A stretch of DNA of 60,234 bases, from assembly GCA_021841025.1 (NCBI GenBank), contig JAKBWA010000048.1:1-60234 (forward strand), given 5' to 3'. Each line of letters opens with the position of its first letter. Positions within the stretch are counted from its first letter, which is position 1. Position numbers and translations under genes: made by a program. The stretch comes from Bacillota bacterium (GTDB lineage: Bacteria > Bacillota > Sulfobacillia > Sulfobacillales > Sulfobacillaceae). Shown here piece after piece: positions 23,004 through 48,813 of this stretch. The notes below the pieces were generated by a model. It saw only the letters and a program-made list of their open reading frames with translations. It searched no databases and was not told where the DNA came from.

Positions 23004-26000
23004 GTGGATCAATCGCATTGGGTAATACACGTCGATGGGGTAACGTTGTCTGTCCAACAAGAGCAGACAATACTGCAAGTGCTATTAGAAAATGGAAAAG
23101 AACTGCCTCATGTGTGTTATCATCCTGATTTAGGGCCTATCCAAACATGCGACACCTGCATTGTCGAAACCCCGGATGGACTCGTAAGAGCTTGCACGAT
23201 CAGAGTCAGTCCCAATATGACCATAGCCACCAACTCAGATCAGGCACATAATGCCCAAGTCGAGGCCATGAACCGGATTCTTCATAATCATCAACTGTAT
23301 TGCACAGTGTGTGATAACAACAATGGCAACTGCACCGTACATAACACAACCGAGATGATTGGCATTAGTCATCAAACGTATCCGTTCGAACCGAAACCCT
23401 ATAAGAAGATTGATGACACGAATCCTTTCTACCGCTATGATGTAGATCAATGTATCTTGTGTGGCCGATGCGTCGAGGCATGCCAGGACTTGGAGGTCAA
23501 TGAAACCCTCTCCATTGACTGGAGTTTGGAACGTCCCCGGGTCGTATGGGATGGCGGCCAGGATATTGGCGAGTCTTCTTGCGTATCCTGCGGACATTGC
23601 GTCAGTGTCTGCCCTTGCAATGCGTTGATGGAAAAAAGTATGCTGGGATCGGCCGGGTATTTGACCAATATTCCCGCCGACACCTTAAGTTCTATGATTG
23701 AATTCGTAGAAGATATTGAACCGAGTCTTCCACCTGTCTTCAAACTATCCGACATCGAATCCACGCTCCGAAAAAGCCGCATTAAAAAAACCAAAACGGT
23801 TTGTACGTATTGTGGCGTAGGATGCTCTTATGACATCTGGACCAAAGATAGAAAAATACTGAAGGTGGAACCGATTTATGAGGCACCCACCAACGGCATC
23901 TCCACATGCGTGAAAGGCAAGTTTGGATGGGATTTTGTCAATAGTCCCGAACGCTTAACCAAACCTTTGATTCGTCGAGACAACAAATTCTATGAAGCTT
24001 CCTGGGAAGAGGTCTTACAGCTCATAAAAGAAAAAATGACGGACATTCGAAAGAAACATGGGCCGGATGCCTTTATGTTCGTCGCATCCTCTAAAGCCTC
24101 CAATGAAGAAGCCTACCTCGTGCAAAAACTTGCCCGTAATGTGATTGGAACCAATAACGTGGACAATGACTCCACCTATTGCCAAGATCCGGCCACATAC
24201 GGCCTGCGCCACACAGTTGGCTATGGAGGAGACAGCGGCTCTATCCATGACATGGCCCACGCCGACATGATCATGACCTTCGGCTCAAATACCGCGGAGT
24301 CTCACCCCGTATGGGCAACCCGGGTCAAACGCGCTCACAAATTACACGGAACCAAGCTCGTCGTGGTCGATATTCGCAAGCACGAAATGGCTGAGCGTGC
24401 CGATATCTGGGTTAAACCTCATCCGGGCACAGACGGCATCTGGATTCTGGGACTATCAAAATACCTCGTAGACCAGGGGTGGATCGATCATCAGTTTCTT
24501 AACGAACGCGTCGACAATGTGGACGAGTATATCCAATCTCTCGCTCCCTACACCTTAGAGGCTACCGAAAAACTTACCACAATCCCCCAGAACACTACCA
24601 GACAAGTGGCGGAAATGATCCACCAATCCCACGCCCTTTCAATTTTGTGGGCCATGGGCATCACTCAGCAACAAACAGGATCAGAAGCGTCTTTGGCCAT
24701 TTCCAACCTCTTGCTCTTAACCGGAAACTTTGGCCGTCCGGGAACTGGCGGCTATCCTCTGCGTGGTCACAATAACGTGCAAGGAGCGTCGGACTTTGGC
24801 GCCAAGCCGTCATACTTGCCAGGCTATCAAGATCTTTCGGATCCCGAAGCCCGAGAACGGTTCAAACGGGTCTGGGGCACGGATTTGCCTAAGAAACTCG
24901 GCGTTAATAACGAGGAAATTGCCAGGGAGATTCAAAAAGGCCGGATCAAAATGCTATATATTGTCGGTGAAGACACCGCCTTGGTCGACACCAACGCCAA
25001 TGAGGCACAAAAAGCCTTTAGTGAGCTGAATTTTATGGTAGTACAGGAAGTTTTCATGACCAAGACGGCTCAGTTCGCCGACGTCGTCTTGCCGGCGTCG
25101 CCATCTTTGGAAAAAGACGGCACATTTGTCAATACCGAGCGCCGCATTCAGCGTTTCTATCAAGCCCTGGAGCCGTGGAAAGACAGCAAACCAGACTGGA
25201 TCATCTTGCAAGACGTGGCCAAAGCTCTTGGAGCCAACTGGCCTCACTATCATCACCCTGCCGATATCATGGACGAAGTCGCTCAAGTGGCTCCTTTGCT
25301 GGCAGGCGTTAGCTATGATCGGTTGGAGGGATATAAGAGCTTGCAGTGGCCCGTTGCACCGAATGGGAGCGATTCACCACTCTTGTACATTGATCGGTTC
25401 CACACGGATAATGGCCGCGCCAAACTCACTCCTTTGTCCTTGCCAGAACCTTCCCGGGAAACGGATAAGTTCGATTTGCATATCAACAACGGTCAGTTAC
25501 TGGAACACTTCCACGAGGGCAACATGACCTACCGCGTAAAGGGCATCCGCCACTTGGTTCCGGACGTCTTTGTCGAAGTTTCACACCAACTGGCTAAAGA
25601 ACGCCACTTGAAAGACGGGACGATGGTTCGTCTCGTCTCCCCCACCGGATCAGTCAAGGTGCCTGTTTTGATTACAGACCGTGTGACAGCTTACGAATTG
25701 TATTTGCCCATGAATTCCCAGGGAGAAGGAGCTATCAATCTCTTAACGGGAAACCTTATCGACACGCAAACGGACACTCCAGCTTTCAAAGAGACAGTGG
25801 CTTACATGGAAGTGCTGGATGAAAAGTCTCCCTCCTCCACACCTTTGCCGCGTTATAACTGGCGCTTTCACAAGCGTCATCCGCAAATGGGTGTAGAAGT
25901 GCGAAAAAAATGGCGGCGCAAGGACTACGTTCCCTTAGTCACCATACCTGACGAGAGGGAGCATTCAATTAAGAAGGAGGACAGCCATGGCTCAACCGAT

Positions 26001-26006
26001 CACTGA
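23004..26006 (+). CDS. Formate dehydrogenase alpha subunit, YjgC/FdhA-like, Cys form
   Basis: A 1000-residue molybdenum enzyme oxidising formate to CO2. In order: an N-terminal 2Fe-2S ferredoxin-like domain (cysteines in PHVCYHPDLGPIQTCDTCIVE), a His/Cys cluster region (HQLYCTVCDNNNGNC), two 4Fe-4S motifs (CILCGRCVEAC and CVSCGHCVSVCPC), the proximal 4Fe-4S and molybdopterin domain (CTYCGVGC; CVKGKFGWDF) and a C-terminal pterin-binding domain. The active residue is Cys, not selenocysteine (STYCQDPATYGL). GTG 23004 follows GAGGAGG at about eight bases. It overlaps the DUF1641 gene by 20 bases, the same pairing as Bacillus yjgC-yjgD. No beta subunit or fdhD is nearby. Confidence 0.93.
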   Translation: MDQSHWVIHVDGVTLSVQQEQTILQVLLENGKELPHVCYHPDLGPIQTCDTCIVETPDGLVRACTIRVSPNMTIATNSDQAHNAQVEAMNRILHNHQLYCTVCDNNNGNCTVHNTTEMIGISHQTYPFEPKPYKKIDDTNPFYRYDVDQCILCGRCVEACQDLEVNETLSIDWSLERPRVVWDGGQDIGESSCVSCGHCVSVCPCNALMEKSMLGSAGYLTNIPADTLSSMIEFVEDIEPSLPPVFKLSDIESTLRKSRIKKTKTVCTYCGVGCSYDIWTKDRKILKVEPIYEAPTNGISTCVKGKFGWDFVNSPERLTKPLIRRDNKFYEASWEEVLQLIKEKMTDIRKKHGPDAFMFVASSKASNEEAYLVQKLARNVIGTNNVDNDSTYCQDPATYGLRHTVGYGGDSGSIHDMAHADMIMTFGSNTAESHPVWATRVKRAHKLHGTKLVVVDIRKHEMAERADIWVKPHPGTDGIWILGLSKYLVDQGWIDHQFLNERVDNVDEYIQSLAPYTLEATEKLTTIPQNTTRQVAEMIHQSHALSILWAMGITQQQTGSEASLAISNLLLLTGNFGRPGTGGYPLRGHNNVQGASDFGAKPSYLPGYQDLSDPEARERFKRVWGTDLPKKLGVNNEEIAREIQKGRIKMLYIVGEDTALVDTNANEAQKAFSELNFMVVQEVFMTKTAQFADVVLPASPSLEKDGTFVNTERRIQRFYQALEPWKDSKPDWIILQDVAKALGANWPHYHHPADIMDEVAQVAPLLAGVSYDRLEGYKSLQWPVAPNGSDSPLLYIDRFHTDNGRAKLTPLSLPEPSRETDKFDLHINNGQLLEHFHEGNMTYRVKGIRHLVPDVFVEVSHQLAKERHLKDGTMVRLVSPTGSVKVPVLITDRVTAYELYLPMNSQGEGAINLLTGNLIDTQTDTPAFKETVAYMEVLDEKSPSSTPLPRYNWRFHKRHPQMGVEVRKKWRRKDYVPLVTIPDEREHSIKKEDSHGSTDH

Positions 26007-28203: not shown

Positions 28204-28854
28204 GTGTCCCCGGAACAAATCCCTCTATTGCAGGATATTCCCCTGGACGCACTCGAAACATGGTCCCTGACCCGTTCATACCGATCAGGCAACACGATTT
28301 TTCATCAGGGAGAAACTACCAGCGGCCTATGGATCGTGCTGGAAGGGCAAATTGCCGTAGAACGTCTAGGGCCTGACGGTTATATTTTTGCAACAGGAAT
28401 CTGGCTGCCCGGCGACATTATTGGCATTGCCGGACTTTGGGACGACAGCCCTTATCCCGCTACAGCACGATGCATGACCACTCCCACAGAAGTTTTGTGG
28501 ATGTCACGCGAACACGTTATGGCAGCCCAGCGCGAAATTCCTGCCTTTGGCATTGCCCTGTGCAAGACTCTGGCTCAGCGCTTGCGTCTAGTTCAAGAAT
28601 CGGCCGCAGACACCAGAGGGCGTCCGGTGGTAGCGCAAGTCGCAGGAATATTAGCGATATTAGCGGAGCGCATGGGTTCGGTAATCAACCTAACTCATGA
28701 AGAATTGGCGCGCATGCTGGGGGTGCAACGTGAAACGATTACGCGTTCCTTGCACACTCTCGTCAAAGAAAACATTATTAGCAGTGGACATGGAACCGTT
28801 CACGTACATGACATCGACAGACTCAAGGAATGGATGACCAAGGCGGTCAATTGA
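28204..28854 (+). CDS. Crp/Fnr family transcription regulator
   Basis: A 216-residue regulator. The N-terminal cyclic-nucleotide-binding fold runs from about residue 15 to 120 (FHQGETTSGLWIVLEGQIAVERLG; WLPGDIIGIAGLW). The usual cAMP-contact Arg-Ser is replaced (PATARCMT) and no N-terminal cysteine cluster exists, so neither cAMP nor an FNR-type Fe-S cluster is expected as ligand. The C-terminal helix-turn-helix is clear: LTHEELARMLGVQRETITRSL. Its RETxxR recognition helix matches that of E. coli CRP and predicts binding to TGTGA-N6-TCACA. GTG 28204 follows AAAGGA. A perfect site of this form lies before the next gene. Confidence 0.9.
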   Translation: MSPEQIPLLQDIPLDALETWSLTRSYRSGNTIFHQGETTSGLWIVLEGQIAVERLGPDGYIFATGIWLPGDIIGIAGLWDDSPYPATARCMTTPTEVLWMSREHVMAAQREIPAFGIALCKTLAQRLRLVQESAADTRGRPVVAQVAGILAILAERMGSVINLTHEELARMLGVQRETITRSLHTLVKENIISSGHGTVHVHDIDRLKEWMTKAVN

Positions 28855-29030: not shown

Positions 29031-29046
29031 TGTGATCAGGCTCACA
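29031..29046 (+). promoter_or_regulatory. Perfect CRP-type operator TGTGA-N6-TCACA
   Basis: TGTGATCAGGCTCACA, flanked by C and G to give CTGTGA-N6-TCACAG. It lies 211 bases before the DUF2249 gene and 177 after the Crp/Fnr gene whose recognition helix fits it. A -10-like TATAGTATGAT follows at about 29064-29074, roughly 18 bases downstream, a placement that could give activation or repression. Confidence 0.7.
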
Positions 29047-34959: not shown

Positions 34960-35536
34960 TGCAGCGAATAATCAACTGACTTGTACTGCACCTCTTCGTA
35001 TAGAAAACATATAACATGAGGCACATAGAACCACCGTGATCATCCGCACAAAGAGACAGATCTGTTTCTCACCCAGACGTTTCACGACATGTTTGACTGA
35101 ATACTGGAGATGAAAATTTGGCATGTTCCACGAAATATTCCCATAGAAGATCAAAAGGCATGGCGAATTTTGTCACAAACATCGGGTCCTGGCTAGGATT
35201 AGAGAAGAGTTTAGTCTTGGTTCTATTTCTCTTGCTGAGCTTCTCTGACCACGTGCATCCTGCCACGGCATTTGAATTCCGTAGGCAATTCAACGCTCAA
35301 ATCCCCGCAGTCAACTAAATATTTTTCTCCTCACACATCTCCTAATGGTGACTTCTGTTGCCCCATTGCATCAAGAATGGAAGCACCGCCAACTTTTTCT
35401 TTCGTACCCCCCTTTGTCATCAACCGGAAAACAGAGTATATAATAGTAATGTCGAATTTTAAGATGGACTCGTAAGCATATTCTGAGCTTCAACAATTCT
35501 TGTCAAAACGAATTCATTCCGGAGTAGGTGCCAAAC
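34960..35536. other. Divergent intergenic region
   Basis: Lies between the XRE regulator and the C39-like protein. Short frames here have no family match. GGAGTAGGTG at 35521-35530 serves the next gene. Confidence 0.35.
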
Positions 35537-36436
35537 GTGAAAGATCCTCTGAAATCCCGCAACAAGAAAAAAAATAGTCGAGTCGGCGCGATTATAAGCA
35601 TTATCGTAGCCGTGATTGCGGTAGGCATAGTAGCCAGCGTCTTTTCGCAACAACTTCACGGCCTAGTCGCATCGTCCCCATCGCATAAGGCGATAGCCAA
35701 GAAAAAGAAACCGAAACAGCCGCCGCCTTTGCCGAAACACATCTTATTACCGGTCACTCCGCAGTCTCAAAGCCCCCAACTTCCAAACGGAGCGGAAGTG
35801 ACAACTTTGTCCATGATGCTGTCGGCGGTGCACCACCCAGTGAGCAAGATGGTTCTGGCCAAAAAAATTCATGTAGACCCAACCAAAGAAGTGATTAAAC
35901 ACTACACCACTTCTTCCGGCAAGAAGGTCTATCAAATCACCAAGTGGGGCGATCCGAACATGGGTTACGTAGGGAGCATGTACAAATCCGGAAAAGGATA
36001 TGGTGTCTACCACGGGCCTTTGTTGACATTGCTGAATAAAGTATGGCCAAAACACGGTGTGGATCTCACCAATCATTCGTTTTCCAGTATTTTAGCTGCT
36101 GTAGGCCGTCGTCACCCCGTGGAAATCTGGACCACTTTAAATTTTCAGCCCACCAATTTCTGGATTTCGTGGACCAGTCCGGAAGGAAAATTTGTTGGCA
36201 CACCTGAAGAAAACGCCGCACTCATCGTCGGTTACAATAAATCTAAAGGATTAGTGTATGTCGATAATCCCGGCAACGGAACGTTGCAAAAAGTCTCTCT
36301 CACCCCGTTGGAGAAGTCGTGGAAGCAATTGGGCAGCCAGGCTGTTACCGTCACCGCTACGGTCCCCGTACCGAAATCGCCGGCAAAGTCTAAACACACC
36401 AAAAGCACCAAGACTGCAAAATCTCACAGCGGTTAA
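35537..36436 (+). CDS. C39-like papain-fold protein lacking catalytic Cys and His (predicted pseudoenzyme)
   Basis: A 299-residue protein with an N-terminal membrane anchor (IISIIVAVIAVGIVASV), a Lys/Pro linker and a C39-like domain. Compared with its paralogue at 36655-37557, the active-site motif reads LPNGAEVTTLSMML where the paralogue has LANGCEVTSLSMLL, and ENAALIVGY where the paralogue has EHAVIIVGY. The nucleophile Cys is Ala and the general-base His is Asn. The rest of the domain is well kept (GDPNMGYVGSMYKSGKGYGVYHGP). A binding or scavenging role is more likely than proteolysis. GTG 35537 is chosen; GTG 35528 is possible but too near GGAG. The tail is Lys/Ser/Thr-rich. Confidence 0.75.
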   Translation: MKDPLKSRNKKKNSRVGAIISIIVAVIAVGIVASVFSQQLHGLVASSPSHKAIAKKKKPKQPPPLPKHILLPVTPQSQSPQLPNGAEVTTLSMMLSAVHHPVSKMVLAKKIHVDPTKEVIKHYTTSSGKKVYQITKWGDPNMGYVGSMYKSGKGYGVYHGPLLTLLNKVWPKHGVDLTNHSFSSILAAVGRRHPVEIWTTLNFQPTNFWISWTSPEGKFVGTPEENAALIVGYNKSKGLVYVDNPGNGTLQKVSLTPLEKSWKQLGSQAVTVTATVPVPKSPAKSKHTKSTKTAKSHSG

Positions 36437-36654: not shown

Positions 36655-37557
36655 TTATGATGTTTTCGATGAAGCTTTGACCGTTATCGCTTGATCGCCC
36701 AACTGATTCCATGCCGCAATAAATGGCGCCTTTGCCACTTTTTGTCCCGCCTGACCTGTCCAGGGATTGTTAATATACAGATAATGTGGGCTGTATCCCA
36801 CAATGATCACGGCATGTTCCAAGGGAGTTGCATGTACTGGCCCTTGGGGACTATTCCATGTAACCCAGTTGCTTGTGGGTTTAAAGGTTAATGTTGTCCA
36901 GACTTCCACCGGAACACCTTTTGCCACATGGGCTAAAATTGCAGAAAAGGGTTGACGGGTCAAATTCACGGCCCGTCCCGGCCAAACTTTATTCAACAAC
37001 TTAGTCATTGGACCATTGTAAATACCATATCCGTACCCAGCCTTATAGACACTCCCCACAAACCCAACGTTGGGATTACCCCACGAAACAACTTTGTTGA
37101 CCTTTTTGCCCTGGGCATTAGTCGTTTGTGCAAGCTTAAGCGGAGCCTGAGCTTTGGGCATTTCTTTCGCTAAAGTCATCTTGCTTACAGGATGACCTAC
37201 GGCTGTCAGCAACATCGACAGCGATGTCACCTCACAGCCATTGGCCAACTGCGGAAATTGAGACTGGGCCGGGACATGCATGAGGTAAGACGCAGGAATC
37301 GATTTAGGGTCTGTTGAATGTTTCGTAGGCGATGCTTTGGCCCCAGTTGATTTCTCCACGCGTTGCTTGGAAGACTTGGGAGCACTGGGGGTGTTCGTGC
37401 GACCAAGCGCATTCAGTCCTAACTGCCCTCCCACATAATCCGCAATTGATCCGCGGTGAACAATTGCGGCGCCCGTCAGACCTCCCGCGACTCCCACAAT
37501 CAAAATCAAACGAGGCCAACTCACTCGGCGTTTCGTGATCCCGCCCTTTCTTGACAC
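36655..37557 (-). CDS. C39-like papain-fold protein with intact catalytic residues
   Basis: A 300-residue exported protein with one N-terminal helix (LILIVGVAGGLTGAAIV), a linker rich in Ser/Thr/Lys and a C39-like cysteine peptidase domain. The Cys is in LANGCEVTSLSML, the His in LEHAVIIVGY and the following Asn in YINNPWTG, so the triad is complete. GTG 37557 is chosen because GAGGTGG lies just before it. It begins 11 bases after asnB ends, so the two share a transcript. Substrate is unknown; candidates are cell-wall peptides or secreted peptides. Confidence 0.8.
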   Translation of the reverse strand: MSRKGGITKRRVSWPRLILIVGVAGGLTGAAIVHRGSIADYVGGQLGLNALGRTNTPSAPKSSKQRVEKSTGAKASPTKHSTDPKSIPASYLMHVPAQSQFPQLANGCEVTSLSMLLTAVGHPVSKMTLAKEMPKAQAPLKLAQTTNAQGKKVNKVVSWGNPNVGFVGSVYKAGYGYGIYNGPMTKLLNKVWPGRAVNLTRQPFSAILAHVAKGVPVEVWTTLTFKPTSNWVTWNSPQGPVHATPLEHAVIIVGYSPHYLYINNPWTGQAGQKVAKAPFIAAWNQLGDQAITVKASSKTS

Positions 37558-37568
37558 TTGGTTCCACC

Positions 37569-39461
37569 TCACAATAAACTGATGGGTCTTCTGGCATCAA
37601 ACTGAGTGTTTGATGCTGCAATAAATTGCTGATACCAAAGAAGAAACACGAGCCCTGTCCAAATTTTTCGATCTCGATTAAATACATATTGCGACGTATC
37701 CAGCAACCCCTGAAAATACCCGGTATCCAAAAATTCAGGGTGGACCGTCGAAAAAATATCCCGGATAAAAGGCTGCATATCTTTGGCAATCCAATCGACA
37801 ATGGGAATAGGAAATCCCAATTTAGGCCGGTTAACAACCTGCTCCGGAACAATCCCTTCGGCCGCTTTTCGTAATGCCACTTTGGTGGTTGACCGATTCA
37901 CTCTCAAGTGCAGGGGAAGAGATTGCGCAGCCCTTTCAAAAAGTTCGACATCAAGAAATGGCACCCGCAGTTCCAAGGAATGCGCCATAGACATTTTATC
38001 CGCTTTCATGAGTATATCCCCCGGCAGCCAGGTATGGCAATCCACCGTTTGCATGATGGCTGAATCGTCCAGTTCATAGGGCAAAGAATAATAAGGATCG
38101 GTAACCCGAAACGAAGATTGTACCTGAGCATAAACATCTTTTTGGAGAAATTCCTTTTTTTCCTCTTCGGAAAACATGCGCGCATTCCCGACGAAGCGCC
38201 GGTTCAAAGGGGTCATCCCGCGCTGGATATATCCACGCCCTTTGGTGCCGGGTGGAAGCTTCTTGGCGGTCCACCACAAAGATTCCCGCAAGGGTCTCGG
38301 CAATTTCCGGAAAAGTTCCAGCGCCAAAGGTTCCTGATAAATGGGATAACCGCCAAACAGCTCATCTGAACCTTCACCGGACAAAATCACCGTCACAAAT
38401 TTTTTGGCCTCTCGCGCCAAAAAATACAATGCTGGAGCACTGGGATCGGCAATGGGATTTTCCTGAGCCCTAATGATCTCCGGAAGCTTCTCTTGATAGT
38501 CTTCCTGGCTCAATTCCACCTCATGATGACGAGTTCCCAGAGCTTTGGCAGTATCGCGGGCAAGATTCAGCTCATTAATTTCCCGGTGCTTGCCGCTGAA
38601 TCCTATACTGAAAGTGTCTACTTCATGCGATTGTCTCAGAAGAGCCACCACTAAAGTCGAGTCAATGCCACTAGACAAATATGCTCCCCAACGCACATCA
38701 CTTTGCTTGTGACGGTTCACGGAATCTGTCATAGCATCTCGTATCCGTTGCGTCGCTTGGGGTAAATCGAGCGTCCGATCAGGGTGAAATTCCAGTGTCC
38801 AGTACCTTTGTAGATGCATCTTCCCATTATGAAGGTGCAGATAATGGGCAGAGGGCAGCTGATATACCCCCTCAAACATGGTCAGAGGATCAGGAACATA
38901 CTGAAACGTGAAATAGTCCCATAAGGCCTGGGTGTTCACGGCAGGAATCTGGGGCAATGCCGATAACAGGCTTTTGATTTCGGAAGAAAATGTCAGTGTG
39001 CCATCTTCGAATCGATAATAAAGAGGTTTAATGCCAAAATGATCACGTACCAAATATAGACTTTCCTTACGAGCATCCCAAATTGCGACGGCAAACATGC
39101 CTCGAATCTTTTCTATCACTCCGTCAATGCCGCCTTCCTCATATAAATGAGGTATCACCTCGGCATCGCTCTGGCTTTTAAAACGATGTCCCTTTTCCTC
39201 AAGCATGCGCCGTAAATCCCGATAATTGTAGATCTCGCCATTGACCACACTGACAATATTAGAATCTTCACCACTCATGGGCTGATGACCGCCCGATAAG
39301 TCCAAAATAGACAGTCTCCTGAAACCAATACCGACATTTTGATGATGCCACATTCCTTCATCATCTGGTCCCCGGTGCGCCAACCTTTTCATCATCGCGG
39401 CTATAACCTGAGGGTCCACAGGGTGATTATTGATATTGACAACGCCACATACTCCACACAC
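37569..39461 (-). CDS. asnB: Asparagine synthetase B, glutamine-hydrolysing
   Basis: A 630-residue enzyme making asparagine from aspartate, ATP and glutamine. The N-terminal glutaminase domain begins MCGVCGVVN with Cys2 as the nucleophile, then LAHRGPDDEG, RRLSILDLSGGHQPM and VVNGEIYNY. The synthetase domain has the PP-loop AYLSSGIDSTLV, followed by SGEGSDELFGGY. The length fits AsnB enzymes of Firmicutes. The start is GTG 39461, with GGAAGG upstream. It is first in a two-gene unit with the C39-like protein. Some AsnB homologues act on peptides or cell-wall precursors, and this pairing would allow that. Confidence 0.93.
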   Translation of the reverse strand: MCGVCGVVNINNHPVDPQVIAAMMKRLAHRGPDDEGMWHHQNVGIGFRRLSILDLSGGHQPMSGEDSNIVSVVNGEIYNYRDLRRMLEEKGHRFKSQSDAEVIPHLYEEGGIDGVIEKIRGMFAVAIWDARKESLYLVRDHFGIKPLYYRFEDGTLTFSSEIKSLLSALPQIPAVNTQALWDYFTFQYVPDPLTMFEGVYQLPSAHYLHLHNGKMHLQRYWTLEFHPDRTLDLPQATQRIRDAMTDSVNRHKQSDVRWGAYLSSGIDSTLVVALLRQSHEVDTFSIGFSGKHREINELNLARDTAKALGTRHHEVELSQEDYQEKLPEIIRAQENPIADPSAPALYFLAREAKKFVTVILSGEGSDELFGGYPIYQEPLALELFRKLPRPLRESLWWTAKKLPPGTKGRGYIQRGMTPLNRRFVGNARMFSEEEKKEFLQKDVYAQVQSSFRVTDPYYSLPYELDDSAIMQTVDCHTWLPGDILMKADKMSMAHSLELRVPFLDVELFERAAQSLPLHLRVNRSTTKVALRKAAEGIVPEQVVNRPKLGFPIPIVDWIAKDMQPFIRDIFSTVHPEFLDTGYFQGLLDTSQYVFNRDRKIWTGLVFLLWYQQFIAASNTQFDARRPISLL

Positions 39462-41003: not shown

Positions 41004-41364
41004 CAAATGGGTGTACTCCTTGTTCCAAAAATTCCCGGAGAATGGGAACTTGGGATCTTTCGATGTCATGACTGGCTGTTAAAAGCACGACAGATGCTAT
41101 TTGGACCATATGCAACAATTGTTCCAACTGAGATGAGGTGTTGTTTTGGAGTTCATCAATGTACTGAGTGCGAAAGATTTTTATGTCGTTTCGGTGGCTG
41201 TGATAGTAACGCCTTAATTGTGTGCTAGGAGCCACTTCAGGCAACCATTCATCCCACAGGGCTTGGTCTTTGCGAACTCCCCGCGGCCATAGCCTGTCCA
41301 CTAATATCCTATGAAATTCTGAAGGTGTTTCATCTCGAATTCGGGCCATGTGGATCGATCTCAT
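40981..41364 (-). CDS. DUF488 protein, YeaO-like
   Basis: A 127-residue protein of the DUF488 family. The landmarks are FHRILVDRLWPRGVRK near the start, WLPEVAPSTQLRRYYH in the middle and VVLLTASHDIERSQVPILREFL at the end. The function of the family is not settled. ATG 41364 follows AAGGAAAAGG; ATG 41349 is an alternative. It is the upstream partner of the AlkA-like glycosylase, so a role in DNA damage response is conceivable but unproven. Confidence 0.82.
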   Translation of the reverse strand: MRSIHMARIRDETPSEFHRILVDRLWPRGVRKDQALWDEWLPEVAPSTQLRRYYHSHRNDIKIFRTQYIDELQNNTSSQLEQLLHMVQIASVVLLTASHDIERSQVPILREFLEQGVHPFDGRQNSS

Positions 41365-41439
41365 ATGCCTTTTCCTTCTTTCTCCTCGCTTCAGACGCTG
41401 AGTTTGGAGACGCGCCACAACCATCGTCCCCTACCATTG

Positions 41440-41445
41440 TATAAT
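41440..41445 (+). promoter_or_regulatory. -10 box TATAAT
   Basis: A consensus TATAAT lies 28 bases before ATG 41473 in the short divergent region. The -35 is weak. A start site at about 41452 would leave room for the GAGGTG ribosome binding site. Confidence 0.5.
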
Positions 41446-41472
41446 GAAAGGCACAAGCAAAGAGGTGAGCGC

Positions 41473-41997
41473 ATGGCGGAAATCGAAGGGATGGAATTTG
41501 GCCACATTCTTCATGACATGGCCCAAGGCACTCCAACCTGGGCCGGAGGGACAGCAGGGGCCCTTGCAGGAGTACTGGCAGCGGCGCTGGTTCTCAAGAT
41601 TGATGTCTTGACACACAAGGACACGGATGATCGCATTATGAAGCAACTCTTACAATTTGCAGAGCAAGAAAGCCAAATCTACCCGCGTATTCTTCAAACG
41701 CGCCGCAACCTTGAAGAGCATAAAATTCAAATCTTGACGGCTTTAAACCTCTCGCGCGACATTGCTCGCCTATCCCTCCAAGAAGCTCAAACACAATTAA
41801 CGCGATTATCCGAGGTAAAAAAATCCTTACAGGCAGATGTTATCACGTGTGCTCATCTGTTCTCCGCTGCTGCCGCCAGTGCTTTGACCAATATTCGGGC
41901 CAACCTGGCTTTGAGTGCCATAGACTTTCCCATTGACGATCTGGAAGATGACCTGCAAGCCCTGCGAAAAACCTTATCCGCGCTAGAACATGCGTAA
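41473..41997 (+). CDS. Cyclodeaminase/cyclohydrolase (FTCD_C, FchA-like) family protein
   Basis: A 174-residue helical protein. The N-terminal GTPTWAGGTAGALAGVLAAALV is the Gly/Ala-rich loop and helix typical of FTCD_C proteins (usually TPAPGGGSVAALAGALGAAL). This family includes methenyltetrahydrofolate cyclohydrolase FchA and formiminotetrahydrofolate cyclodeaminase. The mid and C-terminal helices (ARLSLQEAQTQLTRL; SAAAASALTNIRANLALS) fit the long helical bundle. ATG 41473 follows GAGGTG and a consensus -10. If active, it would act in one-carbon metabolism, which would connect to formate use elsewhere in the window. Confidence 0.75.
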   Translation: MAEIEGMEFGHILHDMAQGTPTWAGGTAGALAGVLAAALVLKIDVLTHKDTDDRIMKQLLQFAEQESQIYPRILQTRRNLEEHKIQILTALNLSRDIARLSLQEAQTQLTRLSEVKKSLQADVITCAHLFSAAAASALTNIRANLALSAIDFPIDDLEDDLQALRKTLSALEHA

Positions 41998-42032: not shown

Positions 42033-42530
42033 TTAGTGCGTCTTAAGAATGCGAACAATGGCAGAGTCATCCGGTTGCGCTATCGTTTCATAAGGATAGC
42101 CATCATCGTCCAATTGCCCCAGGAGAAATATGGGAACACGGTCATTATGAATGACGACGACAGTGCCGACTTCCACCTCTTCCAATTTCTGCAGAGTCCT
42201 TTGCATAGGCTCCGGAGGCACCAGACCACGGTTATCCAAAAATTCCTCGGGGCCCTCAATCTGCGCGTGTGTTGCCGTCTCATTCATCTTGTCTTCATTG
42301 TCTGTCTTCTCCCCCGGCGTAAATGTGGTCATAATCACTCGGCCTACTTTTTCTTGATTCACTGTATACCCCCGGCGCCGCATTTGGCTCATCAAAGGTC
42401 TCGGATTGAATGTCGATTTGACGATAAGACTTTGACCTGGTTCTAAATTATTGACCGTATCCATCATATGGGTAAACAACGATAATCCCTGTTTCAAAAT
42501 GCTCTTAACTTCCACTACTACGGGCTCCAT
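42033..42530 (-). CDS. Tandem DUF2249 protein
   Basis: A 165-residue protein with two DUF2249 domains. The first is VVVEVKSILKQGLSLFTHMM...LEPGQSLIVKSTFNPRPLMSQMRRRGY; the second is FLDNRGLVPPEPMQRTLQKLEEVEVGTVVVIHNDRVPIFLLGQLDDDGY. A short acidic linker joins them. The second domain has His-Asn-Asp (VIHNDRVP), as in domains of this family that may bind metal or heme; that is from memory and unproven. GAGGAG lies eight bases before ATG 42530. It is divergent from the 12-TM protein operon, with a CRP-type site between. Confidence 0.82.
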   Translation of the reverse strand: MEPVVVEVKSILKQGLSLFTHMMDTVNNLEPGQSLIVKSTFNPRPLMSQMRRRGYTVNQEKVGRVIMTTFTPGEKTDNEDKMNETATHAQIEGPEEFLDNRGLVPPEPMQRTLQKLEEVEVGTVVVIHNDRVPIFLLGQLDDDGYPYETIAQPDDSAIVRILKTH

Positions 42531-42914
42531 AATTTCAGCTCCTCTATCACAAACCGCACCTCTCTCAGGCTGACTCGGTATTCGGCTCGTCTGGGCCCAG
42601 TGTACCCATATTCACCACATGACCATTGTGACGTTGATCACGGCTCTAGTCTCTAAGCATGAGCTTCTTATTCTGGACCGTCCTGTGTCAAATTTGGCTG
42701 TCCCTCACCTCATTTTCCTTTCTATCTTCTCTTTTGCGGACGCACTCTCGGCCGAAAAATTCTGCTCTGTAATCACATCATGAATCTTGTCCTCTGTCAT
42801 TTCCGCTGACAAAATTATAGCGTGTGATCAGAGACACAGCTTAAAACATGCGGAGATATCAAACTAACCCAGGAATGATAACACTGTGAAGAAAGATTCA
42901 GAGGCGACAAAATC
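42531..42914. other. Divergent control region of the DUF2249 and 12-TM genes
   Basis: No gene is seen. It carries a near-perfect CRP-type site at 42823-42838 and ATGATAACAC near 42876-42885, which could be a -10 for the plus-strand operon. The left part probably holds the promoter of the tandem DUF2249 gene. Confidence 0.45.
42823..42838. promoter_or_regulatory. CRP-type operator, one mismatch
   Basis: TGTGATCAGAGACACA fits TGTGA-N6-TCACA except for one base in the right half. Its first nine bases equal those of the perfect site at 29031. It lies 77 bases before the 12-TM gene at 42915 and may also serve the divergent DUF2249 gene. Confidence 0.6.
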
Positions 42915-44258
42915 ATGAACAACGATACCATTAGTGCCCAAGCTGCACACTATAAACCCACGATAAATATTGCGCAAGCCCCACCCTTGGCGGGACCTGC
43001 TCTGTTTTTGATTTCAGCGTGGATTAGTCTGGTGGTGGCTGCCACACGAATCCTCACTAATCCCCAACAGTGGCAGACTTCTCATTTGGGGTCGAGCCCG
43101 ACCCTCGTCACAGTTCATCTGGTTACCTTGGGATTTTTCACCATGACCATGCTGGGAACTCTGTATCAATGGGTTCCTGTGGTTTTCGACAGGCCTCCCG
43201 TACCCCTGAAAATGATCGTCTTCCACTGGTTTTTGTACACCACGGGACTCATCTTATTTCTTCTGGGCTTTTCTCTTCACCAGGGTATGTTGTTAGCCAC
43301 AGGCGCTTCTTTGCTGGCGGTTAGTCTCATCATGTTTTCCCTCTTGATAGCGAAACGCTTAATCCAGTCATCTCGCAAGACGGACATGTTGAGCTTCTCT
43401 TTAACTGTGGCGCTGGCTGCACTCAATGCCACCTGGATATTTGGTCTCAGTATGGCGCTGGGCATGGCAAAAATCACAGCCTATCCCAACGTGCTCTCTG
43501 AACATTTAAACACGGCTTGGGCCGGGTGGATTGTCATGTTGGTTCTGGCTGTGCAAATCAAACTGTTGCCCATGTTCTCGATGTCCCGCATGGACCCCTT
43601 GCGCCCGGGTCTTCCTGTCGCTTTAGCGTTTTCTGGACTGCTCGTACAATACGCCGTGAGTGTCCTTCCAGGCCTGGAAGTCGTTGCGGTTTTTTTCTGG
43701 GCCTGGGCCTCCTTAAGCGTATTATGGCAACTGCATAGGCTATGGCATCATCGCCAAACTCCCCATCGGGATGGCGTCTTTGCGGGCGTTGTCTTAGGCT
43801 GGCTTCTTTGGCTTGGTGCCGTTCTTAGCCTACTCTTCCAACCGGAGTTAACGGTCTTTTTGGTGGGTTTGGGGGCCATGACCTTCATCTTCAGTTATCA
43901 ATCCCGTATTATTCCCTTTTTGCTTGCGTTATTTGTGGGACGAAAGCTTCCTGGACCGGTGTTCAAAACATTTTTCATGGCCCAGCGCTTCAATTCACCG
44001 GTACTTCCTGTAATCACAGCCATCTGGTCTTTGGTTATCAGTGTCCTCTGGGTTATCGGCATTGAAAATCAGGCCCCTGGCGTTCTGGCCTGGGCAGGAG
44101 CGTTGCTTCTCTTGTGGCCTGTGTTTCACGTGCTGTTTATGGCCAAGGCTGTCCTCAGTGCAGCGAAAACAAGACCTAGCCCACAAGGCACACCCGAAGC
44201 CAGCCCCAGCGAAACTCCCGACATCTCCAACGAGAGGCCAAATCAAGACCATGAATAA
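42915..44258 (+). CDS. 12-TM membrane protein resembling heme-copper oxidase subunit I/NnrS (paralogue 1)
   Basis: A 447-residue protein with about 12 hydrophobic helices. An early helix carries VTVHLVTLGFFTMTMLGTLYQWVPV, the signature shared by all three paralogues in this region. About 150 residues later comes SEHLNTAWAGWIVMLVLAVQIKLLPMF, with a second conserved His. These two histidines could be axial heme ligands, as in heme-copper oxidase subunit I and NnrS-like proteins, but the full metal-binding set of an oxidase is not seen. The C-terminus is a charged tail with Pro/Ser/Glu. GATTCAGAGG precedes ATG 42915. It overlaps the next gene by eight bases. Confidence 0.72.
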   Translation: MNNDTISAQAAHYKPTINIAQAPPLAGPALFLISAWISLVVAATRILTNPQQWQTSHLGSSPTLVTVHLVTLGFFTMTMLGTLYQWVPVVFDRPPVPLKMIVFHWFLYTTGLILFLLGFSLHQGMLLATGASLLAVSLIMFSLLIAKRLIQSSRKTDMLSFSLTVALAALNATWIFGLSMALGMAKITAYPNVLSEHLNTAWAGWIVMLVLAVQIKLLPMFSMSRMDPLRPGLPVALAFSGLLVQYAVSVLPGLEVVAVFFWAWASLSVLWQLHRLWHHRQTPHRDGVFAGVVLGWLLWLGAVLSLLFQPELTVFLVGLGAMTFIFSYQSRIIPFLLALFVGRKLPGPVFKTFFMAQRFNSPVLPVITAIWSLVISVLWVIGIENQAPGVLAWAGALLLLWPVFHVLFMAKAVLSAAKTRPSPQGTPEASPSETPDISNERPNQDHE

Positions 44259-45579
44259 GCGCCACGAACGATGGAACACACATAACTTAGGACGACAGCA
44301 CACAGAAAAAACGGCCAGTCTGACGATTCCCGTCATGTTCCTGCTTACCGGCCAGGGAGGATGGCTAGTGTCCCTGGTTCTCTTAGCGGTCTATCCCCAA
44401 GATCTGATTTTGGGACAATGGGCACAGCCTTCCTTACTGGCCTCCGTCCACCTCTTTACGCTCGGTTTTTTGACTATGACCGTGATGGGCATATTGCACC
44501 AGTTGGTTCCAGTTACCCTGAACGCTAAACCTTGGAGCACGCCCATTGTGAGTATCCAGTATGGGCTTATGGCGACAGGAACCTTGCTTTTTAGCATCGG
44601 CTTCCTTAGCGATCAGCCACTCTTGCTGATTCCTGGAGCTTTGGGTGTTTCCTTGGGAATCTTGTACTTCGTGGGACTGATTCTCTATAGCGTCCGGCAT
44701 GCCCAAAATCACCCCTTCCACAGCCTCTTTATCCAGTCTTCCTTGGGATATTTAGCTGTGACGGTGATTTTAGGTTTCACCTTGGCATGGAACTATGCCT
44801 ATGATCTCGGACTGTCCTCGTCATTTCTTGTTGCCCATATTGCCGTGGCCGCTGAAGGATTTGCCGTTTTTCTTTTGATGGGACTGAGTTACAAACTGTC
44901 GATTATGTTTTTCCCCTCCAAAGGCTCTCCCCGGCACGGAATCTGGATCTTTTACCTTCTTCACACCGCGGTTATCTTAGAATTATTGGCAGGCTTGACA
45001 AGGTGGCATCTGGTCACCATTGGCGTTATCCTCTTCGCGATAGTTTCTGGGTTATATATCTGGGATATGGCGTACATTTGGCACATGCGGCGCAACTCCT
45101 ATCCCGACCCGGTTTTGTTTACCATCGGCTTAGGTACCGTTTCTTTCACGGCTCTTTGGATCCTCCTCGGCTTGTGGGCTTTATTCCCCTCAGACTCTCA
45201 TTTATTCTCAGCCGCAGTTTTCATAGGGTTTGAAGGATGGTTCGGATTGTCCATCCTTGGCTACAGTCAAAAGATCCTGCCCTTTGTTCTCTGGCTCCAC
45301 CGTTACTCCCACGTGCATGGACAAGGCAAAGTCCCCCGGCTTAACGAAATTTTTCCGGAGGACTGGTCTTGGCACATTATGGTATTAGCGGGATCCGGAC
45401 TCATTTTATCGACCGGCGGGTTAATTCTCTCAGAAAAGGCTTTATTCCTAACTGGACTTCTAATCTTACTGGGTGGCGTTCTGAGGATGCATTTTGCATC
45501 ATGGCGTGCTATATTGCGCCGTCCGGTTCACCGGGAAAATCTCCCGAAAAATCTTCGCCGCCGCATTTTCAACTTCTGA
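44251..45579 (+). CDS. 12-TM membrane protein resembling heme-copper oxidase subunit I/NnrS (paralogue 2)
   Basis: A 442-residue multi-pass protein, start ATG 44251 in the ATGAATAA overlap with paralogue 1. Shared motifs are SVHLFTLGFLTMTVMGILHQLVPV (first His), AHIAVAAEGFAVFLLMGLSYKLSIMFF (second His) and GWFGLSILGYSQKILPFVLWLHRYSHVHG, followed by KVPRLNEIF. The last block is also in paralogue 3 as KIIPFLVWINR and TPRVQDL. Overlap implies coupled translation and possibly a heterodimer. No subunit II, cytochrome c or CuA motif is encoded nearby, so it is not a standard terminal oxidase. Confidence 0.72.
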   Translation: MNKRHERWNTHNLGRQHTEKTASLTIPVMFLLTGQGGWLVSLVLLAVYPQDLILGQWAQPSLLASVHLFTLGFLTMTVMGILHQLVPVTLNAKPWSTPIVSIQYGLMATGTLLFSIGFLSDQPLLLIPGALGVSLGILYFVGLILYSVRHAQNHPFHSLFIQSSLGYLAVTVILGFTLAWNYAYDLGLSSSFLVAHIAVAAEGFAVFLLMGLSYKLSIMFFPSKGSPRHGIWIFYLLHTAVILELLAGLTRWHLVTIGVILFAIVSGLYIWDMAYIWHMRRNSYPDPVLFTIGLGTVSFTALWILLGLWALFPSDSHLFSAAVFIGFEGWFGLSILGYSQKILPFVLWLHRYSHVHGQGKVPRLNEIFPEDWSWHIMVLAGSGLILSTGGLILSEKALFLTGLLILLGGVLRMHFASWRAILRRPVHRENLPKNLRRRIFNF

Positions 45580-45708
45580 CTCTCAGCTAAAAACACGGAG
45601 CACACATCTCATTTATGCGAGAATGTTTCCGGTTTTATCGTCTTGCTCCTATTTTGCCATTTCGAGGCAGGGCACTACTCTTAAATTTCGGCAACAACCG
45701 AGCATCTC

Positions 45709-46641
45709 TTAAACCTCTTTCCCCTCGTGTACTTTTTCGTTTGACGAAAAAGAAGCAGTCGCCGAACGGGCCTGACGAGCGGCATGGTATGACGTGCGCA
45801 CCAAGGGTCCCGATTCTACGTGGAGAAATCCGCGCGCTATGCCTTCCTCCCGCAATTTTTCAAATTCTTCCGGGGTATAAAAACGGGCCACAGGCATTTG
45901 TTTGGACGTGGGTCGCAAATATTGACCAATGGTCACAATATCCACATTCACAGCCCGCAAGTCGTCCAGGGTTTCTAAAATCTCATCCCACGTTTCTCCC
46001 ACGCCCAACATGATACTGGATTTCGTGGCCTGGTCACGGCGAATGATTTTGGCCGTGCGCAAGAGTTCCAAAGATCTTTCATAAGTCGCCCGGGAACGCA
46101 CACGAGGGGTCATCCTCCGCACCGTCTCGACATTATGATCCAGCAATTCAGGGTGCACTTCAACAACTTTTTGCAGTGCCACAGCCTCTCCTTGAAAGTC
46201 CGGAATGAGCACTTCTACCTGACAGTGAGGAGACAGACGCCTAATGGCTTCAATCGTCATCCGAAAGATGGTTGCTCCCCCGTCAGGCACATCATCTCTA
46301 TCAACACTGGTGATTACCACATGATCCAAGTCCATTTTCTGCACAGTTTGCGCAACCCGTTCCGGTTCTTCCCAGTCCAAGGCACCAGGATGTCCACTTT
46401 TCACGGCACAGAACCGGCAATTGCGGGTACATGTCTCTCCCAAAATCATAAACGTCGCAGTCTTGTCCCGATCCCAGCACTCATAAATATTAGGACAATG
46501 CGCTTCCTCACAAACTGTATGCAACTGTTCTCCACGCATCATCATTTTCAGTCGATGATAGTTAGGTCCCTGTGTTGCCTTGACTTTTAGCCATTGGGGT
46601 TTTTCCAGCTCTTCCTTCTCTATCACACGTATCACCCTCAT
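45709..46641 (-). CDS. lipA: Lipoyl synthase
   Basis: A radical-SAM enzyme of 310 residues that inserts two sulfurs into octanoyl groups to make lipoyl cofactors. The auxiliary 4Fe-4S motif CEEAHCPNIYEC and the radical-SAM motif CTRNCRFC are both complete, followed by VVITSVDRDDVPDGGA. The C-terminal RTSYHA contains the serine-type ligand region RSSY in altered form (RTSY), which keeps the serine. ATG 46641 is the likely start, though its ribosome binding site is weak. It sits between paralogues 2 and 3 of the 12-TM family and is probably a separate unit. Confidence 0.95.
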   Translation of the reverse strand: MRVIRVIEKEELEKPQWLKVKATQGPNYHRLKMMMRGEQLHTVCEEAHCPNIYECWDRDKTATFMILGETCTRNCRFCAVKSGHPGALDWEEPERVAQTVQKMDLDHVVITSVDRDDVPDGGATIFRMTIEAIRRLSPHCQVEVLIPDFQGEAVALQKVVEVHPELLDHNVETVRRMTPRVRSRATYERSLELLRTAKIIRRDQATKSSIMLGVGETWDEILETLDDLRAVNVDIVTIGQYLRPTSKQMPVARFYTPEEFEKLREEGIARGFLHVESGPLVRTSYHAARQARSATASFSSNEKVHEGKEV

Positions 46642-46994
46642 CTCATAGTTATGCCTTAAAAACACTCCGCGTTTTTCGGTGGATGCTATCTGATGACAAG
46701 CCGAAAATCCTGCATCTTATTATGTTCGCTACGCCCTTGAAGGGAAATTCCTTATTCTCTCAAGAAAATCTGTGAATATGGCCGCCCGTATTTGATATAA
46801 CGCCGAGACTCAGTCATTAGCACTATTACAATAATAAGCCACAATCCCGCTTTCTTGGCAGGATTGTTCTTTTTCTATTTTTCTATTATGGACGCACATT
46901 ATGAAGAATGTGGCACGAACAGCTGCGAGTGAGACAGTCGTCAGCATAAACCTCCCGTTGCCTCAAGTCCACGATCAAATTCCAGGTCTTAACA
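46642..46994. other. Gap with a plus-strand terminator-like stem
   Basis: No gene is seen. ACAATCC (46841-46847) pairs with GGATTGT (46861-46867), followed by TCTTTTTCTATTTTT, a terminator form on the plus strand although no plus-strand gene ends here. It might end an antisense or readthrough transcript. Confidence 0.45.
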
Positions 46995-48329
46995 TCAATT
47001 TCTGGATGACGACTTGTCAGCCATGTGTTTCTTTTCCTCTTGGACTCCCACTCGCTCTACCTGGGGGTGAGCGGAATGGTATAGTGCACGCGCAATATCT
47101 ACGGTTGCCAAAAGTGTTCCACCCATGGCAAAACGAAACGCCCCAAACCACCCCATTAGCAAAAAGACCGCGGCCAAAATCACGGCCGCAAAATACACGA
47201 TATAAGCATAACGATCTCGCGATTCGTGGACAAGGTCCTGGACTCTTGGCGTCTTCTGTTTTCCCATTTTGGACCCAAAGCGGTTGATCCACACCAAAAA
47301 CGGAATGATCTTGTAAAGTTGTGTTAAGGCAAGACCTCCCAGCCAACCATAAAGACCCAGGAATACCAACGCCACATCAAGCCGGGTTCCAAATGAATCA
47401 GGCAGTGCGGCAATGCCGCCGACAACCAAAATCCCCAATATCGCCAGTGGCACAAGCCCAAAACGGGCATTCAACTCAAGACGACGGCGTTTTCTTTGTT
47501 GATACAGTTTTCTCATGTCCAGAAGATACAAGCTTAATCCTATCAATATCACTACCCAACTTGCATCCGCTAAAAAATTGAGACCTTCCCAACGGCCAAT
47601 CCATGTCGCCGTAATTCCTGCCGCCGTAGCAATATAAGCGGTCCAGCCAAGTTTTCCCCGGTGTTCGTCAGAGAGAGTGAACATAGCCAAGAGCTTGTAA
47701 CTAACACCCATAGCCGTCAAAGTCAGCCAGCCCACCACACCGCCAGCCACATGGGAGGCCAGACCTCGTGTTCCCATCATCTGGAGTTGGGAGGGTGTGA
47801 ATAATTCCGGCACAGTCAATGACAACGCCAAAAACAATCCGACCAAAACCGTCACCAACAGATAGAAAATTCCTGTGGCTACCAGCCATGCCGGCAATTG
47901 CCACGGCCATGCCCTCTTAAGCGTCACGCCCAGATTGATTGCCGCAATAATCGATCCGGATACAACGAACGTTCCGCCGACGGGCAATAACCAGGCTACG
48001 TGGGGAACAACTCCCCCTGGCAAGGCCAAAAATCCCAAAATCATTCCAATTAAACCAATGGCGATGCTAATCACACTAACACCGGACCATCCTTGACTGG
48101 ATAATTCGGTTTGCGTGAGAACAGGAACAAACTGGTGCAATGCGCCCAGGATAACCAGCGTCAAAAACCCAATGGTTGTCAGGTGGACACCGACCAAAAC
48201 CCACGGATCGCCAAGACGCTCTAGCGGATTGCCAAGGCCCAAAACCCACAACAATTCGGCCAATATTAATGATACGATCGCCACGCTAAAATAGCTCATG
48301 CTCCACCTGGATAAACGCACTCCTCGCAT
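46995..48329 (-). CDS. 12-TM membrane protein resembling heme-copper oxidase subunit I/NnrS (paralogue 3)
   Basis: A 444-residue protein with about 12 hydrophobic helices. It has GVHLTTIGFLTLVILGALHQFVPV with the first conserved His, then SHVAGGVVGWLTLTAMGVSYKL with the second. Near the C-terminus it has GLYGWLGGLALTQLYKIIPFLVWINR and TPRVQDLVHE. It is closer to paralogue 2 than to 1 in these blocks. GAGGGAGC precedes ATG 48329; ATG 48299 is possible. Two CRP-type half- or full sites lie upstream, at 48492 and 48646. The operon arrangement, with paralogues 1 and 2 on the other strand, suggests an inverted gene duplication. Confidence 0.72.
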   Translation of the reverse strand: MRGVRLSRWSMSYFSVAIVSLILAELLWVLGLGNPLERLGDPWVLVGVHLTTIGFLTLVILGALHQFVPVLTQTELSSQGWSGVSVISIAIGLIGMILGFLALPGGVVPHVAWLLPVGGTFVVSGSIIAAINLGVTLKRAWPWQLPAWLVATGIFYLLVTVLVGLFLALSLTVPELFTPSQLQMMGTRGLASHVAGGVVGWLTLTAMGVSYKLLAMFTLSDEHRGKLGWTAYIATAAGITATWIGRWEGLNFLADASWVVILIGLSLYLLDMRKLYQQRKRRRLELNARFGLVPLAILGILVVGGIAALPDSFGTRLDVALVFLGLYGWLGGLALTQLYKIIPFLVWINRFGSKMGKQKTPRVQDLVHESRDRYAYIVYFAAVILAAVFLLMGWFGAFRFAMGGTLLATVDIARALYHSAHPQVERVGVQEEKKHMADKSSSRN

Positions 48330-48499: not shown

Positions 48500-48813
48500 T
48501 CACCGTGTCGACTTCTTGGCTCCGGCAGCCATGCCACACAGTTTGATTCGTTTTGATTCGTACTCCCAGTACGGCTCCGGCTTACCCCGATGATCGCCCA
48601 ATTGGTGCATCTGTAACAAGAATACCTTGTATGCTTCCACGGCACTGTGACTGGGATCACACGGCCAAAAAGGGCATAGTGAGTCAAAACCCATAGGGGC
48701 AAGGAGCACATCGACTTACATTCTTTGAGAAATTGATCCGCCTGATTCATGGCGTGTTTCGCTGTCAGGAACTGGTCTATGGCCAGATTTCGGCTAATTT
48801 TGGCGATGTCCAT
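48500..48813 (-). pseudogene. Small gene with a probable frameshift, unknown function
   Basis: From ATG 48813 one frame reads NLAIDQFLTAKHAMNQADQFL as far as about 48715. The adjacent frame from there reads VLLAPMGFDSLCPFWPCD, then AVEAYKVFLLQMHQLGDHRG and PEPYWEYESKRIKLCG, ending at 48500. Both parts look like one coding sequence of about 100 residues broken by an extra base near 48710. Two cysteines (PFWPCD; KLCG) may be a metal site. I recognise no family. A perfect CRP-type site lies within it (48646-48661), so the region may instead be non-coding. Confidence 0.35.
48646..48661. promoter_or_regulatory. Perfect CRP-type site inside the decayed gene
   Basis: TGTGACTGGGATCACA fits TGTGA-N6-TCACA exactly. 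It is 317 bases before the start of the third 12-TM gene and inside a possible frameshifted gene. It may be functional at a distance, or fortuitous. Confidence 0.35.

Follow-up and report, generated by a model that had tools for sequence, protein, structure and literature searches.

The 60,234-nucleotide stretch analyzed here (positions 1 to 60,234 of contig JAKBWA010000048.1, assembly GCA_021841025.1; hereafter the window) is part of a 3.39 Mb bacterial genome in 118 contigs, the nearest named relatives of which are Sulfobacillus. It carries three genes for related membrane proteins, P1, P2 and P3, together with a gene for a tandem DUF2249 protein, and the nature of these proteins is the subject of this computational study (Table 1). 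An earlier, sequence-only reading had proposed an undescribed system in which P1 and P2 overlap and are divergent from the tandem DUF2249 gene, P3 is inverted nearby, and neither an oxidase subunit II nor a cytochrome is present. The coordinates and orientations of all four genes proved to be correct on re-reading of the sequence, and the arrangement was confirmed. The overlap spans 8 nt, with the ATG of P2 at 44251 and the stop of P1 at 44256-44258, and a lipoyl synthase gene that had gone unmentioned (45709-46665, minus strand) lies between P2 and the inverted P3. No oxidase subunit II or cytochrome was found next to P1-P3, as had been claimed; the six true COX1 genes of the genome are all located on contigs other than that of the window. 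A fourth paralogue, P4, lies at the end of contig C65 of the same genome.

Table 1. Genes and Crp-type palindromes of the window (positions are those of the window).
Feature	Position	Strand	Remarks
Tandem DUF2249 protein, 165 aa	42033..42530	-	Divergent from P1; Pfam PF10006 in two stretches, E 1.3e-21
P1, protein with 12 transmembrane helices and heme-copper oxidase homology, 447 aa	42915..44258	+	His pair H68/H197
P2, protein with 12 transmembrane helices and heme-copper oxidase homology, 442 aa	44251..45579	+	His pair H67/H196
P3, protein with 12 transmembrane helices and heme-copper oxidase homology, 444 aa	46995..48329	-	His pair H49/H193; from alignment and tree; class also found in Pseudomonadota
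Single-domain DUF2249 protein, 74 aa	29258..29482	+	Pfam E 1.2e-15
Crp/Fnr-family regulator	28204..28854	+	Pfam cNMP_binding and HTH_Crp_2
Crp-type palindrome TGTGACGTTGATCACG	42627..42642		DUF2249/P1 divergent promoter region; exact match; conserved in L038 and L039
Second, weaker palindrome TGTGATCAGAGACACA	42823..42838		77 bp before P1; one mismatch; conserved block in L038 and L039
Crp-type palindrome TGTGACTGGGATCACA	48646..48661		Upstream of P3; exact match; conserved block in L038 and L039
Crp-type palindrome TGTGATCAGGCTCACA	29031..29046		Between the Crp gene and DUF2249; exact match

P1, P2 and P3 share 23-27% pairwise identity and constitute one family. The motif VHLxTLGFLT...LxQxVPV and the second His noted in the earlier reading are present in all three proteins, although the two His of P1, like those of P2, are 129 residues apart and those of P3 are 144 apart, not about 150. 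In an alignment of 94 homologues from genomes of 12 phyla, only H68, G81, Q85, G177, H197, M220 and F221 (P1 numbering) are invariant, and exactly two His are therefore retained throughout the family. Given this invariant set, the shared motif and His pattern did not arise by chance. Furthermore, a profile built from P1, P2 and P3 found relatives in 31 of the 41 genomes searched around the window. Pfam COX1 matches 30 of the 94 members (best E 1e-12), NnrS matches 14 (best E 5e-4), and among solved structures the family profile picks up CcoN (E 6e-13); P2 alone gave no useful match to the sequences of solved structures, and the family profile was required for this purpose. P1-P3 had no match to PF00115 up to E 1, and two further members tested singly reached 18-21 bits, under the cut-off of 34.8.

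In the tree, which was made by a quick method and is uncertain in its deep branches, P1 and P2 belong to two Bacillota-only groups (starred at 100 and 98, and the set holding both at 97), and P3 stands within a group that holds 16 proteobacterial rows (100). Based on these groupings, the three genes are an old Bacillota pair, P1 and P2, and one gene that Pseudomonadota also have, P3 being the orthologue of the proteobacterial gene. In a locus from Saprospiraceae (L082, 5947-8513), the family occurs in two tandem overlapping copies that represent an independent duplication. In the close relative L038, an open reading frame (ORF) between P1 and P2 (2494-2901) resembles, by eye, the start of an IscB/RRXRR protein and is likely a mobile-element insertion.

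AlphaFold2 models of P1 (predicted local distance difference test score, pLDDT, 91.4; predicted template modelling score 0.90) and P2 (93.0 and 0.91) show three blocks of four transmembrane (TM) helices each, twelve in total, as claimed before. We checked whether the models lack the fold of the heme-copper oxidases (HCOs) that had also been claimed, and the fold is present in both. The P1 model matches the nitric oxide (NO) reductase 4xyd (VIA Z 31.2, 363 residues, root-mean-square deviation 3.1) and the CcoN structure 3mk7 (Z 30.2), and the P2 model matches the CcoN of a cbb3 oxidase (Z 36.9, 385 residues, root-mean-square deviation 2.9). These superpositions cover nearly the whole chain, and their Z values of 30-37 are far over the level flagged by the tool. 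Homology among the three four-helix units is also detected by hhalign (probabilities 96.8, 95.3 and 94.7). The loops contain 18 Lys and Arg residues inside and 2 outside in P1, and 21 and 2 in P2, which corresponds to an N-in/C-in topology. Because the positively charged loops are inside together with both termini, both conserved His are placed on the outer side, at the ends of TM2 and TM6.

The three-unit class of "heme-copper oxidase homology" (HCOH) proteins has the HCO fold made of twelve TM helices that form three homologous units of four, as found here by AlphaFold2, VIA and hhalign, and it keeps two His instead of six. HCOH proteins, including NnrS, were reportedly described by Pei et al. 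in 2014 (Protein Sci 23:1220). P1-P3 are members of the three-unit class. Since the NnrS precedent had been published, as had the link of DUF2249 to HCO-superfamily proteins and denitrification that is made in PMC11218638, they belong to a known class, and with homologues in 12 phyla the designation as an undescribed system does not hold.

The HCOs bind their metals through six His (one in TM2, one in TM6, the HH of TM7 and the HxH of TM10), whereas only two invariant His remain in this family, and the unit-3 core segment of P1 and P3 contains no His. The loss of the CuB ligands and of the TM10 HxH pair implies that P1-P3 are neither oxidases nor standard NO reductases. A classical oxidase is thus rejected on the His count, in agreement with the sequence-only reading. 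In oxidases, the low-spin heme is bound by the second TM10 His, which faces unit 1, and the first, which faces unit 2, binds the high-spin heme. In the alignment with CcoN, the second His of the TM10 motif HVHAGALGW is matched by H68 and the first by H197; a colinear global profile alignment to the HCOs was of low probability, with its register shifted, and was left out of the ligand mapping. If the TM10 register is turned by the threefold pseudosymmetry, H68 and H197 would both face the gap between unit 1 and unit 2. The simplest reading of this pattern is a single bis-His heme in the pore that oxidases leave heme-free. Such a putative heme b would be held by the two His between units 1 and 2, on the outer side of the membrane, and its site would resemble the low-spin heme site of the oxidases shifted by one unit of the pseudosymmetry. 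A protein of this kind, which would lack both a copper site and a catalytic heme-copper center, would not be expected to carry out the usual respiratory reduction of O2 or NO.

The genes are accompanied by Crp-type palindromes. The pattern TGTGA-N6-TCACR, which was picked after the P1 region had been viewed and the remaining sites of which were found later, has three exact occurrences in the window, compared with 0.28 expected. Across the genome, 26 distinct exact sites are present, and one of these precedes P4 by 378 bp. The Crp protein of the window has the helix sequence RETITR, which resembles the TGTGA-reading helix of E. coli CRP, and it is a candidate regulator of these sites. The DUF2249-Crp neighborhood recurs in several relatives, and the single-domain DUF2249 gene is likely in the same regulon. 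In addition, a second cluster on contig C100 consists of two DUF2249 genes and genes for MIP18, Rieske and DUF302-like proteins; MIP18 and the gene that follows it are preceded by the related sites CGTGATCAAGATCACG and CGTGATCATGATCACG. This cluster (L126; G000 C100 10000-29000) also has a gene for an unknown 174-aa protein and strong CGTGATC/GATCACG palindromes.

The functional tie to DUF2249 suggested in the earlier reading is supported by a survey of 79 loci that carry the family. The product of 42033-42530 scores 76.7 bits against the PF10006 cut-off of 29.5 and is a DUF2249 protein, and a tandem DUF2249 gene next to P1-type genes is conserved in relatives. DUF2249 is close to the family in 64 of the 79 loci (three of these on weak scores of 26-33), a MIP18-type iron-sulfur (Fe-S) assembly factor in 39 and Crp genes in 20; in 25 of the 31 relatives' genomes, a family gene and a DUF2249 gene are no more than 5 kb apart. 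Three members combine the family and a MIP18 domain in one chain. This agrees with three long family ORFs of Saprospiraceae (L075, L078 and L087), each of which is likewise hit by the profile of MIP18-type Fe-S assembly factors and is probably a gene fusion.

The NO-related role that had also been suggested is supported by the neighbors in other bacteria. In Massilia, qNor and Rrf2 genes flank the family gene, Vineibacter likewise has both, and in Aminobacter the family gene comes after the nos operon. On pSymA of Sinorhizobium meliloti, the order is norD, hemN, pirin, DUF2249, the P3 orthologue ("hypothetical protein"), DUF2249, MIP18, nnrS and nirK, followed by a formylglycine-generating-enzyme-family gene, Crp/Fnr, pseudoazurin and nap. 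The nirK, norC, azu1, hemN and nnrS genes of this species are reported targets of NnrR (PMC6710368). Family genes are labelled hypothetical in the records checked, and a literature search by locus tag for the S. meliloti P3 orthologue returned nothing naming the gene.

Our best explanation, to which we give somewhat better than even chances, is that P1-P3 are three-unit, two-His HCOH proteins with DUF2249 and MIP18 partners and a single bis-His heme, which take part in a Crp-controlled response to NO or related nitrogen species. According to this explanation, P1-P3 would be NO-induced, single-heme, NnrS-like membrane proteins that shield iron and Fe-S centers and act with DUF2249 proteins and with a MIP18-type Fe-S factor encoded elsewhere in the genome. 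NO would bind at the bis-His heme, or be dealt with by electron transfer, and cellular iron and Fe-S clusters would be spared. A precedent is NnrS, a heme protein under NnrR control that reportedly guards the iron pool against dinitrosyl complexes (PMC11526790). The co-occurrence of the two families also favors the explanation: all 31 genomes with the family have DUF2249, compared with 2 of the 10 without it (p 4.7e-7, with no correction for shared ancestry).

Several points weigh against this explanation. The palindrome is a generic Crp site, and the p value for co-occurrence with DUF2249 ignores kinship. Searches of the window's own genome for a NorB-type reductase (PF22085) and for ScdA_N gave no match; a search for NnrS gave none either, but it matched no control genome. 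We found no heme, copper or NO assay for the family in the literature. As for the NO itself, it may be supplied by the chemistry of nitrite under acidic conditions.

The same neighborhoods could indicate a sensor of redox state or gas: NO or O2 would bind to the bis-His heme, and the signal would reach gene regulation through the cytoplasmic DUF2249 proteins, similar to the DrpA/DrpB proposal in Thermus. The tight linkage of the family to DUF2249 and Crp genes and the palindromes at the DUF2249, P1 and P3 genes agree with a sensor, and DUF2249 proteins are proposed as nitrate sensors in denitrification (PMC11218638). However, the Crp or Rrf2 regulators on hand could themselves sense NO, the MIP18 partner and fusions indicate Fe-S handling and not signalling, and the membrane protein has no signalling domain; we consider a sensor unlikely. 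Fe-S handling is central to another alternative, in which TusA-like DUF2249 and MIP18 deliver sulfur or clusters, the heme protein gives or takes electrons, and NO is only the inducer. Although the tandem DUF2249 protein matches TusA (E 2.2e-6), MIP18 adjoins or is fused with the family, and the family is abundant in the Sulfobacillus relatives, which are acidophilic sulfur oxidizers, the proteobacterial copies are found in denitrification islands and not in sulfur clusters, and we assign this alternative a low probability.

A quinol-linked NO reductase or oxidase with an unusual active site is suggested by the closest folds, which are NO reductase and CcoN, but it is highly improbable given that neither the CuB ligands nor the TM10 heme His is retained, that only two His are invariant family-wide and that the unit-3 core of P1 and P3 is devoid of His. 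Least probable of all is an assembly or export factor for the heme or copper enzymes of denitrification: the family does occur in nos and nir/nor neighborhoods, yet it is present in a genome in which the PF22085 search found no NorB-type reductase, and a survey of Sulfobacillus genomes reported NirK together with an NO dioxygenase for S. acidophilus and a single Nar operon for a different species, but otherwise no genes of denitrification (PMC4378227).

The explanation that we prefer, an NO response built on a single-heme HCOH protein, can be extended further, although we regard the extended version as a long shot. P1 and P2 would form an obligate hetero-oligomer, and P3 would be a separately regulated second form. 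With the bis-His heme in the unit 1/unit 2 pore, and together with DUF2249 and MIP18, they would provide membrane-anchored repair or shielding of Fe-S clusters from NO in acid-loving bacteria that have no NO reductase. The family spans many phyla and is tightly tied to DUF2249. The two predicted heme ligands, the putative outer-face heme, the Crp-type regulon and the MIP18 fusions mean that the roles of both families can be put to the test in model rhizobia, such as S. meliloti, in which the P3 orthologue is part of the denitrification island.

Other genes of the window include an ORF at 41350-41997 with a formiminotransferase-cyclodeaminase (FTCD_C) match barely over the Pfam cut-off and two paralogous secreted-looking proteins on opposite strands (35528-36436 and 36655-37572) with, by eye, a C39-type-peptidase-like pattern. 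Close to the Crp/DUF2249 pair, 23004-26006 encodes an iron-sulfur molybdopterin protein that by eye resembles formate dehydrogenase.

Among known systems, the catalytic subunits NorB/qNor and CcoN (PF00115) share the full-length fold with P1-P3 but differ from them in that P1-P3 have no CuB ligands, no TM10 heme ligand and no PF00115 match. NnrS (PF05940) is similar in fold class and NO context, it lies in one island with the family gene in S. meliloti, and P1 matches its profile weakly (E 0.014). However, the score of P1, 15.2 bits, is under the Pfam cut-off of 28, and S. meliloti NnrS is not matched by the family profile; membership of P1-P3 in NnrS was rejected on these two grounds. The closest comparison is the three-unit HCOH class. 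Although the P1/P2 pair and the Crp-site regulon may be absent from its 2014 description, this class shares with P1-P3 the twelve TM helices arranged as three homologous units of four, the two conserved His and the link to DUF2249 and denitrification.

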